DNA of 64,000 bases, from IMG/VR virus record IMGVR_UViG_3300036795_000250, positions 1-64,000 of that record. One strand, 5' to 3'. The stretch is from a virus. This document shows, piece by piece, positions 3,385-61,351 of the stretch (the stretch's first letter is position 1; the number at the start of each line of letters is the position of its first letter). The notes below the pieces were generated by a model. It made no database searches and was not told where the DNA came from. It saw nothing but the letters and a program-made list of their open reading frames with translations. The translations under genes were made by a program, and so were the position numbers.

Positions 3385-3482
3385 TTTCCAGTAGGTTTCC
3401 AGTAGACGCGCGGGGCCGACATCAGCGCAGGTCAGACTGCCTGGCCCGCCTGAGGCGATCCTTCTAGTGGGTTTCTAGTAAC
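3385..3482. repeat. Two pairs of 11-bp direct repeats, likely recombinase arm sites
   Basis: Four units lie in the same orientation: TTTCCAGTAGG (3385-3395), TTTCCAGTAGA (3396-3406), CTTCTAGTGGG (3461-3471) and TTTCTAGTAAC (3472-3482). Within each pair the period is 11 bp and the pairs are 76 bp apart, just beyond the 3' end of a tyrosine recombinase gene. This matches the paired design seen around the second attachment site at 55 kb. The crossover core has not been identified; 3407-3460 is the obvious candidate. Confidence 0.5.
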
Positions 3483-3505: not shown

Positions 3506-4735
3506 TTAGCCATGCTGGATGGCATGGGCGACGATGTCGACCGCGCTGCGCTCGGGGCTTCTTGCCGCGTGGACGTAGACACGTCTGGTGACCTCGGTCG
3601 AGCTGTGCCCCAGATCGAGGGAGACGTCAGATTCTGGAGCGCCCGAATCTACCCCTGCGGTGGCGTAGAAGTGGCGCAGCGCGTGCGGATGTATTGCCTC
3701 GGCGATGTCCGCCAGCTCGTCGCCACCCGACGCAGCGATACGGCGCAGCACCCGCCACAGCTCTTGCCGCGTATAGCGGTTACCGCGACGGGTGACGATG
3801 AGCGGCGTCATGGCATGAGGCTCGTTGGCGCGGAGTTGCGTCACCACCGAGCCTGCCGCGCTGTCCAGCATCGTCAGGTAAGCGGCGAGTCCATCGTCGG
3901 CCAACGTACTCAGGTAGACCACGCGCTCCTTGCCTCCCTTGCCATGCACGCGCAAAGCGCGGCGACCTCGGGTGACGTGCAGGTCCGCGCGGTTGAGGTA
4001 GCACACCTCGCTCACCCGCAGGCCCAGAGTGAACAGGGCGACCATGGCCAGCTCACGAGCCACGCTGAGCGCCGTCTGGCGTGGGCTTCGGGTGCCAGCG
4101 GAGCGGAGCAGTGCTCGGACTTGAGCTGGTGTCAGGACGATGGTGGGTGACGTGTTCTGCGTGACGTCCAGGCCGAGTCGTCGCCGGTTGATTGCGACCG
4201 GGTTGGCGTCCACCAGTTCCACCTCGGCCAGGTACTCGTACAGCGCTTTGGCTGCCGTGCGAAACGCGTCCCGGGTGCTGGGAGCAGCGCCCGCGTCGGC
4301 CAGATCGCTGAGCCACTCCTTCACATGCACGCTCTTGACATGGAGCGGGTCGAGCTCGTGTGCGACGAGCCAGCGGAACCAGTGCAGAGAGCGAAACGGG
4401 CCGCGTGCGCGAGACCAGTGACTGGTGCTCGGCTGCGGAGCCGGGATCTTCAGGGCGCGCTTGTAGCTGGCTCGGGCAGCGGCCCAGCCGTCCGGTTCCT
4501 GCTCTGGGAAGGCCCAGGCCGCGAAATCGTTGCCGGAGACCGGCAGGCCCAGATGTTCTGCGTAGGTGTGCTGGGTGCGCTGGGTCTTGTATCCGAGCAG
4601 CCATTCGGTGATGGCAACCAACAAGGCGGCAGGGTCAGTAACGAAAGGCCAGAGGGCGTCGGGTCGTGCTCCGGCGGGTAGTGCCGTGGTGTCGAGGGTT
4701 TCTTCGCTGGAGATGACAATTCCGTCGAATGTCAT
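3506..4735 (-). CDS. Tyrosine recombinase 1 (XerC/D-like)
   Basis: A 409-residue site-specific recombinase. The catalytic set is complete: Arg240 (GLRVSEV), Lys266 (HGKGGKE), His351 and Arg354 (HPHALRH), His377 (LGHSS) and the nucleophile Tyr387 (VYVHA). Residues 30-185 form the core-binding domain; there is no AP2-type arm-binding domain of the usual phage kind. Paired direct repeats follow the 3' end, so it could be a second integrase with its own attachment site, or a resolvase for genome dimers. It is unrelated in detail to the integrase at 55207. ATG 4735 is the first start in frame. Confidence 0.9.
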   Translation of the reverse strand: MTFDGIVISSEETLDTTALPAGARPDALWPFVTDPAALLVAITEWLLGYKTQRTQHTYAEHLGLPVSGNDFAAWAFPEQEPDGWAAARASYKRALKIPAPQPSTSHWSRARGPFRSLHWFRWLVAHELDPLHVKSVHVKEWLSDLADAGAAPSTRDAFRTAAKALYEYLAEVELVDANPVAINRRRLGLDVTQNTSPTIVLTPAQVRALLRSAGTRSPRQTALSVARELAMVALFTLGLRVSEVCYLNRADLHVTRGRRALRVHGKGGKERVVYLSTLADDGLAAYLTMLDSAAGSVVTQLRANEPHAMTPLIVTRRGNRYTRQELWRVLRRIAASGGDELADIAEAIHPHALRHFYATAGVDSGAPESDVSLDLGHSSTEVTRRVYVHAARSPERSAVDIVAHAIQHG

Positions 4736-53781: not shown

Positions 53782-53795
53782 GGGGACACAGGCTA

Positions 53796-54224
53796 GTGGC
53801 TGACCATTTCGCGCTGGACCGACCTCGCCCGATACCGCAAGAATCGAGCGAAAGCCACGATAGTGTCCTGATCCTCGCTGCTCAGATGCTGGACGAGTCG
53901 CAACAAAGCCACGATAGTGTCTTGATCCTCACTGCTCAGCTGTTGGACCAGCAGTCCCGAGATTCTGGCGATCACACCTGCGGCAGGTCCAGCGTCCTCG
54001 GCGAAGAAGTCGGACACCGGGCGGAGGTATACCCGTGCCAGCTTCGCGAGTTCCAGGCAATCGACTCGCCGACGGCCGCACTCGATCTCAGAGATCGCGC
54101 TGCGCGCGATGCCGGTCAGGTTCGCCACATACTGCTGGCTGAGCCCTTGGTCCTCGCGGGCCGCGCGCAGGCGCTGGGCTAGCTCGCGCTGTTCTGCGGA
54201 TATGTTCTCAGTGGGTGTGCGCAT
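53796..54224 (-). CDS. XRE-family repressor with duplicated segment
   Basis: A 142-residue protein with an N-terminal helix-turn-helix (RLRAAREDQGLSQQYVANL, then SAISEIECGRRR) of the XRE/Cro-cI type. Residues about 94-130 carry an 18-residue tandem duplication (LSSEDQDTIVA twice). ATG 54224 is chosen because the preceding micro-ORF stops eight bases before it. It lies left of attP2 with the integrase on the other side, so it is the best candidate for the lysogeny repressor, although no operator was recognised. Confidence 0.8.
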
Positions 54225-54231
54225 GGGGAGA

Positions 54232-54303
54232 TCAGCTGACCGGGTTCCCAAGATCCAGGATGGCGGCCACTGCGTCGATCGCGTCCTTGGACCAGTCGCT
54301 CAT
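54232..54303 (-). CDS. 23-residue micro-gene, MSDWSKDAI family
   Basis: A 24-codon frame whose ATG overlaps the stop of the gene upstream (ATGA) and whose stop lies seven bases before the repressor start. The first nine residues, MSDWSKDAI, are identical to the start of the 78-residue protein at 54587-54823, and the DNA is nearly identical over about 27 bases. It may be a coupling leader for the repressor, or the remnant of a duplicated gene. Confidence 0.5.
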   Translation of the reverse strand: MSDWSKDAIDAVAAILDLGNPVS

Positions 54304-54823: not shown

Positions 54824-54985
54824 GAGGCGCGAGTGTAGCGGCCCGTCAGGTGTCCTGGGAGCGCTGCCCGCAAGGGAGCAACCTCGGCGCGGAGCGGCGT
54901 CACGGTGTCCTCTCGTGGCCATACCTGTCCAGCCGTGTCACTCGTTCCAGGACCCAGTGGGCACGGAGTGGGCACGACACAGAAA

Positions 54986-55008
54986 AGCCCCGGCTGAAAA
55001 CCGGGGCT
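54986..55008 (-). terminator. tRNA-associated leftward terminator
   Basis: An 8-bp perfect stem (54986-54993 with 55001-55008) with a seven-base loop, followed on the minus strand by TTTTCTGTG. It lies just past the tRNA-like 3' end on the same strand, as it would at the end of a host tRNA gene, so it was probably part of the sequence captured by the phage. Confidence 0.75.
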
Positions 55009-55024
55009 GACCTGCACCAACGAG

Positions 55025-55052
55025 TGGTGGGCGATACTGGGATTGAACCAGT
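55025..55052 (-). tRNA. Partial tRNA 3' end (attachment core)
   Basis: Read leftward: a T arm (5-bp stem ACTGG/CCAGT around loop TTCAATC), then the 3' acceptor half ATCGCCC, discriminator A and CCA. The 5' part and anticodon are absent, so the isotype is not known, but the intact gene should start GGGCGAT. It is the phage copy of the target tRNA 3' end. A second copy of GGCGATACTGGG lies at 55067-55078, 37 bp away. Confidence 0.7.
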
Positions 55053-55206
55053 ATCATGGGCAGGGTGGCGATACTGGGTTGAGCAGGAAAAACGCCGTCT
55101 GACCAGCCAATACGGACACCAGTGTCGCCTGCCATAGGGGACACGACAGGACACAAGATGTACATTCGTGTGGGCACGTAGAGGGCACGAAATCTTGGAG
55201 GTCTAA

Positions 55207-56499
55207 ATGGCTCGTGGACAGAGACAGTTCGGCAGCATCCGCCTGCTTCCTTCGGGCCGCTTCCAGGCCCGGTACATCGGGCCGGACGGGCAGCGCTACA
55301 CCGCGCAGACGCCCGCAGGCAGACCTCGGACGTTCACTACGAAGGGTGACGCTGGGACCTGGCTCGACGGCAAGCACACGGACATCGAGCGCGGAGTGTG
55401 GGTGGCACCGGGTAGCCAGCCCTCGGTACCCGAGGAGCCTGCCAGACCCGTGACCTTCGGTGTCTACGCCGAGCAGTGGATGGCTGACCGGGCCAGTGAG
55501 CTCGCACAGACCACCTATGACCACTACACCCAACTGCTGCGTGATCACATCAACCCTACGTTCCAGGACACACCGCTGAGCGATATCAAGCCAGCAGGGG
55601 TCCGTGCGTGGCATGGCCAACTGGCCCGCGCCAAAGGGAAGAAAATCAGGGACAGGCCGACGACGCGTGCGCACGCCTACGGGCTGCTGCGCACGATCCT
55701 GGGTGCGGCGGTCGCTGATCACGACCAGAAGTTGATCAGCGTCAACCCTTGCCACATTAAAGGCGCCGGGGTGGCAAAGCGGGCTGTGGACATCGAGACC
55801 GTCACTCTGGACGAGCTGACCATCATCGTGGCGAAGATGCCACCTCGGTATCAGCTGATGGTGCTGTGGGCTGCCTGGTGTGCGCTGCGGTTTGGCGAAC
55901 TGGCCGAACTTCGTCGCTCGGACGTGGACGTCGTCAAATCTGTGGTGCGTATTCGGCGCGGCGTCACGCGCAGCAAGGGCAAGCGGATTGTCAAAGGCCC
56001 GAAGTCCGAGGCAGGGAAGCGGTCGGTCGACATTCCGCCGCACCTGATGTCGTTGGTCATCGCGCACTTGCGAGACCATGTTGGCACTGAGCCTTCGGCG
56101 CTGTTGTGGCCCTCGTCGAGCGATCCCAACCGACACCTGGCGCCGTCCACTCTGTACAAGGTCTATTACCCTGCCCGTGAGGCTGCCCATCGTCCCGATC
56201 TGCGCTTCCATGATCTCCGGCACACTGGTGCAGTGTTGACTGCCGCGACTGGTGCCACCATCGCGGAACTGAAGGCACGGCTAGGTCATGCGACCTTCAC
56301 GGCTGCAATGCGCTACCAACATGCCTCGAAGGAGAGCGGGAAGAGAATCGCCGCTGCGCTGTCCGGCCTCGTGGCGGTTCCCGGTGACACGAGGCCGCAG
56401 GACCAGGTCGACCAGATCCGTCAGCTTCTCGCTGAGGCAACTCTGACTGACGAGATGAAGGCGGTACTGCGCAAGGCAATCGAGGGCGACGCTGCTTAG
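55207..56499 (+). CDS. Tyrosine integrase 2
   Basis: A 430-residue phage integrase. Residues 1-60 look like the AP2-like arm-binding domain (FGSIRLLPSGRFQARYIGPD), 85-185 the core-binding domain, and 200-390 the catalytic domain with Arg in CALRFGELAEL, His and Arg in FHDLRHTG, His in ARLGHATFT and the nucleophile Tyr in MRYQHAS. ATG 55207 follows GGAGG. It acts at the neighbouring tRNA-derived attP. The last four bases overlap a small membrane gene on the other strand. Confidence 0.95.
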   Translation: MARGQRQFGSIRLLPSGRFQARYIGPDGQRYTAQTPAGRPRTFTTKGDAGTWLDGKHTDIERGVWVAPGSQPSVPEEPARPVTFGVYAEQWMADRASELAQTTYDHYTQLLRDHINPTFQDTPLSDIKPAGVRAWHGQLARAKGKKIRDRPTTRAHAYGLLRTILGAAVADHDQKLISVNPCHIKGAGVAKRAVDIETVTLDELTIIVAKMPPRYQLMVLWAAWCALRFGELAELRRSDVDVVKSVVRIRRGVTRSKGKRIVKGPKSEAGKRSVDIPPHLMSLVIAHLRDHVGTEPSALLWPSSSDPNRHLAPSTLYKVYYPAREAAHRPDLRFHDLRHTGAVLTAATGATIAELKARLGHATFTAAMRYQHASKESGKRIAAALSGLVAVPGDTRPQDQVDQIRQLLAEATLTDEMKAVLRKAIEGDAA

Positions 56500-58925: not shown

Positions 58926-59138
58926 TCAGGCCGTCGGCAGTTGTCTGGCCAATGCTTCGACGTCGTCCAGACTGACCTTCAGCAGGCGTGGACCGACCCG
59001 GTATCCAGGAAGTCGCCCCATCGAGATCCAGCGACGCATGGTGCGCGGCGAGACATCCGCGACCGCAGCCGCCTTCGCCACCGACGCGAGTCGTGTCGGG
59101 AGCCGTGTGCCGGTAGTCTTCGCTTTTGCTGCACTCAC
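58926..59138 (-). CDS. Excisionase-like helix-turn-helix protein
   Basis: A 70-residue basic protein. It has a MerR/Xis-type winged helix-turn-helix (SVAKAAAVADVSPRTMRRW, then ISMGRLPGYRVGPRLLKV) and ends DVEALARQLP. GTG 59138 overlaps the epimerase stop as GTGA and follows GGAGG. The size and sequence fit excisionases of actinophages; it could serve the integrase at 55207 or the recombinase at 3506. Small regulators of the BldC type look alike. Confidence 0.7.
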   Translation of the reverse strand: MSAAKAKTTGTRLPTRLASVAKAAAVADVSPRTMRRWISMGRLPGYRVGPRLLKVSLDDVEALARQLPTA

Positions 59139-60016
59139 GTTGCCTCCAAGGCTTCGGTGATGCCTTGCGCCAGACTGATTGTGGGTTGATAGAACGACAG
59201 CATCTTGCTGGGGTTGCCAACCCGGTGAAAGACACCCGTTGGCGCATCGAGTTTGTGCTCGATCACGGGCGAGTAGCCGACCTGTTGTGCCACGAACCGG
59301 GCCAGTTGGTTGAAGGAGGTGCTGGTGCCCGAGCACAGGTTGGTCGGCCCGTCGATCTCTTGCTCCACGGCGACTAAGGTCGCGCCCACGATGTCATCGA
59401 CATGGATCCAGTCCCGCACTTGCTCACCGTCACCCCAGACCTCAAACGGATCCATCCTGCGCTTCGCTCGCCGGATGAAGCTGGGGAACGGATAAGTGAG
59501 GTCCTGGTCGGACGCGTAGCCAGAGAATGGGCGCAGCACGGTGACCCGGGATGTCGAATAGGACGCCAGCACCTCGCCCGTGAGTTTCACCCAGCCGTAG
59601 GTCTGATCCGGTGACCCACTGAGATCCTGGAAGTTGATGTCGATTTCGGACAGTCGCCGCGCCACGGACCGTCCTAGGTCTGGCCAGTGTTGCTGGAGCC
59701 AGGTGGGGTAGGCGGCCGAGCTGGAGTAGTACACCGCTCGCGGGGTGCCGGAGAGCTCCAGCCACCGGAAGAACCAGGCATCCAACGCTAAGTTTGTGGC
59801 TATCATGATTGGCGCGTTCTCAATACTCTGACGGCCGCCGACAATAGCTGCGCAATGGATCGCGAGGTCATATCGATGTGTGTTGTTGCGGAACATGTGC
59901 AGGCAGTCGATGCCGTCCTTAACATCCCAGCCTTCAACGAAGTCGCCTCGTGCCACCAGCGCCTTCGTCAGATGACGCCCGAGCAGACCGCTCGACCCGG
60001 TCACCAATACCCTCAC
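59135..60016 (-). CDS. NAD-dependent nucleotide-sugar epimerase/dehydratase
   Basis: A 293-residue extended short-chain dehydrogenase. The dinucleotide-binding site is TGSSGLLG (residues 6-13), YYSSSAAYP holds the active-site Ser/Thr, and YGWVK holds the catalytic Tyr and Lys. It resembles GDP-fucose synthase and dTDP-sugar enzymes; the exact reaction is not clear. It is in a coupled cassette with a methyltransferase and a glycosyltransferase. Confidence 0.8.
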   Translation of the reverse strand: MRVLVTGSSGLLGRHLTKALVARGDFVEGWDVKDGIDCLHMFRNNTHRYDLAIHCAAIVGGRQSIENAPIMIATNLALDAWFFRWLELSGTPRAVYYSSSAAYPTWLQQHWPDLGRSVARRLSEIDINFQDLSGSPDQTYGWVKLTGEVLASYSTSRVTVLRPFSGYASDQDLTYPFPSFIRRAKRRMDPFEVWGDGEQVRDWIHVDDIVGATLVAVEQEIDGPTNLCSGTSTSFNQLARFVAQQVGYSPVIEHKLDAPTGVFHRVGNPSKMLSFYQPTISLAQGITEALEAT

Positions 60017-60621
60017 GACCGTACCCCTGCCACTACTTGCGCTCCACCAACGATGTCATGCTTGACCACTGTGAAACCGCCCGCGTTGAGCAGTTCGACA
60101 TACCCCGCCTTGTCCCACGCCCAGGTGTGGAAGGGGTAGTGCGCGTCTGGAGACTCAAACGCGGGCGAGGATGCGATGAGGATCCGCGAGTGTTCAGCGA
60201 CGCGTTGCACGAACAGCTGGGGCGCCGTCAGATGTTCGAGCACCTCCGTCGCAACCGCGACATTCCCCCACTCGATCTGCGGGCCCCAGATGTCGCCATA
60301 GCGCGCATCGACATGCCGAGCGGCCACCGCCGGCCGGATGTTGGAGGGTTGCAGGTCATATCCCCAAGCCCGGCAGGGCACATGCGAGGACTTCAACAGA
60401 GACAGCAGGCCCCCGTCCCCGCAGCCGAGATCGACCACCGTCGGGACAATGCTGGGTGGCATCAGGCTGGTGACCGCCCAGTCGACCAGGCGGGCCGCCG
60501 CTAGCAGTCGCTCCTTATGGTCCGGCTGCTCTAGATGTGCTGCACGTTCCCGCGCCGCATACCATGACGCCGTCGTGTGCTCAGGGATAGTGTCGTCCTC
60601 GAAAAGCTTCCATTCAGCCAC
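60013..60621 (-). CDS. Class I SAM-dependent methyltransferase
   Basis: A 202-residue protein with the SAM-binding VVDLGCGDGGLLSLL near 63-77, an acidic second strand end (AWGYDLQP), and VATEVLEHL near 128. The start overlaps the glycosyltransferase stop by eight bases and its end overlaps the epimerase start by four. It probably methylates a sugar or the same target as its neighbours (inference). Confidence 0.8.
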   Translation of the reverse strand: MAEWKLFEDDTIPEHTTASWYAARERAAHLEQPDHKERLLAAARLVDWAVTSLMPPSIVPTVVDLGCGDGGLLSLLKSSHVPCRAWGYDLQPSNIRPAVAARHVDARYGDIWGPQIEWGNVAVATEVLEHLTAPQLFVQRVAEHSRILIASSPAFESPDAHYPFHTWAWDKAGYVELLNAGGFTVVKHDIVGGAQVVAGVRS

Positions 60622-61351
60622 TGTTCACATCACCATTCGCGCGAACAGACCGCTCATTGGCGAGATCTCGAATCAGCTTTGCCGCAACAGGGAGCTCGAA
60701 CTGTTGCCACAGGCGGAATTCCTCCATGTCGTGGCTGTTGGTGTCCGAGCTGTTGCGCGTGCGGTAGCCGTCATCCCAATCGCTCAGCCCAGCGCTCGGG
60801 TGTAGGTGCTGGATGTGCATGTGCGGCAGATACGTCAGACAGTGTGCTGCTATTCCCAACTCCAGCCAGGCATTGTCCACCCAGAGGTGGTGCATTCGCG
60901 GTGGTGCCATGTAGCCGATGGCCTCGACGATTGCGGCGGTCATGACAATCGCGGTCGGCAGCCGAGGACCTTGGATGCCGTCATCGCCGTACACCATGCC
61001 GGTGCCCATCCCACGGAGCACGCGGATCGCATGGTCGGCCCAGTCGCCCTGCGGCAGGTGGTCATCACCCATGAACGCGAGCATCTCGTAGCGATCCAGG
61101 CAGTGTGCTGCCAACAGGTTGAGCGCCATCACCATGCCTGGTCGATGTCCTTCGGGCAGGATCACGATCTCGCCGGACGTGATGCGCTCTGCCGCGAGCT
61201 CCCGGTATCCGGCCAGCTTCGGATCATCCGCGTCCACGCCCACGAATACGTCGACATCCGGTGCTGTCTCGCGGCAGGTGCGTAGGAGCCGACGGGTATT
61301 GTCCGGGCGCCCTCGGGATGGGACCAGCACTGCGAGTGTGAGTTCGGGCAT
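60614..61351 (-). CDS. GT2-like glycosyltransferase
   Basis: A 245-residue GT-A-fold protein. TLAVLVPSRGRPDNTRRLLR starts the nucleotide-binding half, FVGVDADDP follows, and LAFMGDDHLPQG carries the acidic metal-binding motif near 90-102. It heads the leftward sugar cassette. Acceptor unknown. Confidence 0.8.
   Translation of the reverse strand: MPELTLAVLVPSRGRPDNTRRLLRTCRETAPDVDVFVGVDADDPKLAGYRELAAERITSGEIVILPEGHRPGMVMALNLLAAHCLDRYEMLAFMGDDHLPQGDWADHAIRVLRGMGTGMVYGDDGIQGPRLPTAIVMTAAIVEAIGYMAPPRMHHLWVDNAWLELGIAAHCLTYLPHMHIQHLHPSAGLSDWDDGYRTRNSSDTNSHDMEEFRLWQQFELPVAAKLIRDLANERSVRANGDVNSG

Follow-up and report, generated by a model that had tools for sequence, protein, structure and literature searches.

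The window analysed here, a whole stretch of 64,000 nucleotides covering positions 1 to 64,000 of virus record IMGVR_UViG_3300036795_000250, contains a tyrosine integrase gene preceded by a tRNA 3′-end fragment and a terminator, both of which are enclosed between two pairs of short tandem repeats. The features of the locus are as follows.

53793 to 54251, minus strand: HTH repressor-like gene beside the P arm (HTH_3; phrog_2328 repressor)
54957 to 54977, minus strand: P-arm pair, two GGGCACG at 11-bp spacing, predicted arm-type integrase sites
54986 to 55008, minus strand: intrinsic terminator for the restored tRNA gene, folding at -18.4 kcal/mol and also present in relatives
55007 to 55015, minus strand: trailer motif GCAGGTCAG after the tRNA 3′ end, seen 7-11 nt behind many actinobacterial tRNA-Val genes
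55025 to 55052, minus strand: proposed attP core ACTGGTTCAATCCCAGTATCGCCCACCA, 28 bp corresponding to the T-arm, acceptor 3′ strand and CCA of tRNA-Val
55067 to 55078, minus strand: second partial core CCCAGTATCGCC at -31, exact over 12 bases and separated from the true core by 37 bp
55079 to 55087, minus strand: -40 site CCTGCTCAA, a weak match to GC[A/T]GGTCAG
55099 to 55107, minus strand: -60 site GCTGGTCAG, GC[A/T]GGTCAG-like
55119 to 55128, minus strand: -81 inverted core-like motif GCGACACTGG
55170 to 55190, minus strand: P′-arm pair, two GGGCACG at 11-bp spacing, predicted arm-type sites ending 16 bases before the int ATG
55207 to 56499, plus strand: tyrosine integrase of 430 aa (PF00589, 3.7e-16; PF14659; phrog_1, 1.2e-60) with R228, K266, H335, R338, H361 and Y370
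58926 to 59336, minus strand: candidate excisionase (RDF; HTH_17 / phrog_66), whose true start may be inside the ORF

The R-K-H-R-H-Y residues of tyrosine recombinases are conserved in the integrase when it is aligned with that of D29 and with relatives. Its gene adjoins an arm site, as had been proposed from the sequence; the ATG at 55207 lies behind a GGAGG and 16 bases past the end of the P′ arm at 55190. No sigma-70 promoter was found near int. Clustered near the candidate excisionase gene (59135-61351, minus strand) are genes that on inspection of the sequence appear epimerase- (nucleotide-sugar), methyltransferase- and glycosyltransferase-like.

The four GGGCACG copies (54959-54965, 54970-54976, 55172-55178 and 55183-55189) form two tandem pairs with 11-bp spacing, and the 21-mers that contain them, 54957-54977 and 55170-55190, are identical at 19 of 21 positions and directly oriented. 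These coordinates and the 19/21 match bear out the sequence-only reading of two tandem pairs flanking a tRNA fragment and its terminator. The 21-mer pattern has no third place in the 64-kb window, where 0.06 would be expected from shuffles, and 21-mers alike at 19 or more of 21 positions within 300 bp arose in one case across 10 Markov-simulated genomes. Counted singly, 9-mers allowing one mismatch show no enrichment across the window (38 vs 33.6 expected); the arm signal is the pairing of sites and not the single site. As in attP sites of the lambda/L5 type, the repeated sites are located on both sides of the core and are distinct from core sites. Searches for the arm-pair pattern in viral contigs and for the locus DNA in phage records gave no match.

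The tRNA with the same 3′ end, for which a search of actinobacterial genomes had been suggested, is represented by tRNA-Val: many Actinobacteria, and also some Proteobacteria, have the exact core 27-mer in their tRNA-Val genes. The original identification of a T-arm/acceptor fragment stands insofar as a tRNA 3′ fragment is concerned, and is amended in that the tRNA is tRNA-Val (most likely GAC), that the core begins at the T-stem and that a second core-like copy occurs at 55067-55078. The T-loop TTCAATC, which points to GAC as the most likely target isoacceptor, was found in 40 of 41 actinobacterial tRNA-Val(GAC) genes and TTCGATC in 14 of 15 CAC genes among the sampled loci, a contrast that is only suggestive because a pattern containing TTCAATC was used to retrieve most of the loci and the GAC set is thus partly selected. 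A simulated attL, made by fusing the phage core to the 5′ portion of a tRNA-Val(GAC) gene from Pseudonocardia, contains a complete tRNA-Val(GAC), while attP and attR hold none; completion of the host tRNA on integration was seen both in this simulation and in the joined flanks of relatives. Strand exchange is likely to take place in the T-loop (55041-55047), since identity to the core sets in at the T-stem or T-loop throughout the relatives. As no lysogen of the phage was found, attB is a predicted site only.

The trailer motif GCAGGTCAG follows tRNA-Val by 7-11 nt in seven sampled loci (L025, L041, L045, L101, L135, L137 and L158), with or without an adjoining element, and is rare behind the tRNA-Gly and tRNA-Cys genes of the same operon. 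Naming of a host from the trailer and terminator was dropped, because relatives carry both as phage-side sequence and several of the matches proved to be element ends with arm pairs. GCAGGTCAGAGGCC, considered as a mark of tRNA ends only, was likewise rejected, none of its five exact genome hits lying directly behind a tRNA.

The closest integrases found are from Mycobacteriales (61% identical in G388, 59% in G266, 58% in G283 and 57% in G330); over the Mycobacteriales genomes overall, identity is 55-61% and the integrated elements are 9-16 kb. Each end of the G388 and G266 elements carries a single arm pair, and joining of their host flanks gives an intact tRNA-Val, of CAC type in G388 and TAC type in G266. 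Behind the restored tRNA come a trailer and one of the arm pairs, accompanied in G388 by a terminator of the same type, and the other pair is found at the far end beside int. Such split arm pairs are the expected look of an attP that has been cut in two. Across eight loci, the start of the P pair is at +67 to +71 relative to the T-loop, and the P′ 11-bp tandem pair is positioned about -142 from the T-loop in most of 24 integrase loci. The arm sequences themselves vary among relatives (CGTGCC[AC], TTGCACCA, GTGAACT and GTGCAAC), such that arm spacing and tRNA target are fixed while the arm sequence changes. Among the 9-16 kb elements with the nearest integrases, L160 (G266) and L158/L159 (G388), that of L160 (2397-11529, 9.1 kb) contains HTH regulators and a gene for a phage capsid, which makes it similar to a capsid-encoding phage satellite.

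These relatives also bear on the suggestion that the GGGCACG repeats are operators for transcription of int or the repressor, the tRNA fragment being incidental. Autoregulation of int is plausible because the right pair just precedes the int ribosome-binding site, and arm-like sites are found at int starts in related phages (PMC3706429). However, in relatives with other arm sequences the tRNA-Val cores have the paired sites on either side at constant distances, and integration divides these sites between both ends, making a purely regulatory role extremely improbable; autoregulation may exist in addition to the attP role.

Further motifs recur between the core and the P′ arm. GC[A/T]GGTCAG-like sequences with at most two mismatches were detected at -60 in 12 of 24 loci and at -40 in nine of 24 (0.25 and 0.19 in shuffles), and the inverted core-like motif at -81 in nine of 24 loci vs 0.25 in shuffles, figures that overstate independence because motif choice followed inspection of the sequences and the loci include related ones. 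For 13 of the 24 relatives, the best core-like match is located at -30/-31. When conservation of the P′ region was scored column by column, no signal emerged, because the motifs shift by one base, and a windowed test was used instead. Similar repeats occur in D29 at -80, -62 and +23. As a guess from sequence, the P′-arm motifs could be bound by excisionase or a host factor. That an unrecognised DNA-binding protein, either a host factor or an RDF, acts both at attP, through the P′-arm sites (-81, -60, -40 and -31), and at tRNA 3′ flanks, where the GC[A/T]GGTCAG motif recurs as GCAGGTCAG, is a speculative and rather unlikely proposal.

The complete record is 129,193 bp in length and its first and last 127 bp are identical, an arrangement that either a circular assembly or a short terminal repeat would produce. 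Under either interpretation the record closes, and attP is therefore internal. The genome encodes a major head protein, protease, portal, terminase, DNA polymerases, clamp and RecA, the genes flanking attP are phage-type, and no tRNA gene was found in the phage record. Alternatively, the locus could be an attL or attR, the end of an integrated prophage, with the DNA left of the core belonging to the host, since a tRNA 3′ fragment with a host-like terminator is the typical appearance of a prophage end, and the trailer and terminator match the flank of a Pseudonocardia tRNA-Val gene at 87% over 67 bp. Against this, the left side has an arm pair outside the terminator, in relatives the terminator and arm pair adjoin the restored tRNA on its element side, and the record closes as a circle, so that neither flank is host DNA and attP is intact. 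A match of one flank to host chromosome, which would have spoken for a prophage end, is not borne out; both flanks carry phage genes, and it is in the relatives that the arm pairs are split between element ends. A prophage end is accordingly hardly credible, and the 127-bp exact end repeat together with arm pairs on both sides upholds the original proposal of an intact attP on a circular or free form.

It is also very unlikely, if somewhat less so, that the site is a relic of a phage that no longer integrates here, or that lives as a plasmid or uses a second recombinase (3506-4735). This would fit with most related large phages being without a tyrosine recombinase and with the presence of a second tyrosine-recombinase gene that has two additional tandem repeats of 11-bp spacing next to it. 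On the other hand, the integrase ORF is intact and its catalytic residues conserved, and the arms, core and spacing are intact and in register with those of active-looking relatives. The second gene (3506-4735 of the window, minus strand) is located beside tandem pairs at 3385-3405 and 3462-3482, consisting of TTTCCAGTAG twice and of TTCTAGTGG/TTCTAGTAA, with GCAGGTCAG at 3427-3435 and a terminator-like hairpin; this region is perhaps a second attachment site of the phage, with no visible tRNA core.

The locus is thus very probably, on sequence grounds, an intact attP, belonging to a temperate actinophage that integrates at tRNA-Val and has a circle-closing genome of 129 kb. In the proposed mechanism, the integrase would bridge the arm pairs through its N-terminal domain and the core through its catalytic domain, and the phage would be inserted as strands are swapped with the host tRNA-Val(GAC) gene within the T-loop TTCAATC. 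The host 3′ end would be replaced by the phage core and terminator, so that the tRNA would stay functional, and the product of 58926-59336 may be the excisionase that would later drive excision.

Judged by its capsid protein, the phage is closest among sequenced phages to Microbacterium phage Magritte (61.7%), in which no integrase is annotated. No relative of the tyrosine integrase was detected in viral contigs or among 14 related virus records (major capsid protein identity 57-77%); the same query does find matches in bacterial genomes, and therefore the search itself works. A tyrosine recombinase of any kind is present in only three of the 14 records, two of which carry other integrases beside other tRNA-like ends. 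The integration module therefore seems to be exchanged in the group. In the related virus records G716 (L280) and G715 (L279) the integrases are unrelated and adjoin other tRNA-like ends, where G716 has an 11-bp tandem CCGTCCACAAA repeat. The integrase occurs sporadically among related large actinophages, a pattern suggestive of gain and exchange of lysogeny modules in the group. The intact int-attP module aimed at tRNA-Val(GAC) is a possible actinobacterial integration vector, and the conserved P′-arm motifs name candidate sites for excisionase or host-factor binding. The target isoacceptor, the split-arm proof in relatives, the fixed P′-arm motifs, the motif behind host tRNA-Val and the sporadic integrase are new beyond the earlier reading.

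Two other lysogeny strategies can be set aside. In tRNA-dependent lysogeny a core of ∼10 bp breaks the host tRNA, which a phage tRNA complements (PMC10865867), whereas here a 28-bp core restores the tRNA and the phage is without a tRNA gene. Integration-dependent immunity involves an attP inside the repressor gene and no arm sites (PMC9262239), and does not fit an attP that lies outside the repressor-like ORF (53793-54251) and has arm sites.

The Mycobacteriales tRNA-Val elements (G388, G266, G283 and G330) have the closest integrases (57-61%) and share the tRNA family, arm spacing and terminator position, but are small (9-16 kb) and integrated, with CAC or TAC as target, and one has a capsid gene. 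L5/D29 resemble the phage in a related tyrosine integrase (D29, 36.9% over 91%), a core formed by a tRNA 3′ end, and direct pairs of short arm sites, the int-proximal pair being 11 bp apart and the 9-bp iterons of D29 having the same layout. D29 differs in its tRNA core, its arm sequence TGCGACCTT and its extra sites, whereas the phage described here has four arm sites and a core starting from the T-stem. L5-type systems further include an excisionase (RDF) that acts at sites in attP/attR, for which the excisionase-like gene at 58926-59336 is the candidate here. In CrimD and its cluster K1 relatives a 24-bp T-arm core is flanked by two pairs of 11-bp arm repeats, attP is located 5′ of int and a terminator separates the core from one arm pair (PMC3203893). 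CrimD targets tmRNA and its pairs are mutually inverted, in contrast to the tRNA-Val target and direct orientation found here; direct-orientation arm pairs are known from Giles and L5 (PMC3203893). The geometry, earlier regarded as uncommonly clear, is indeed clear but not uncommon, being well described for actinophages (PMC3203893). Since its layout is of the L5/D29, CrimD and Giles type, this attP is a further example of an established class.
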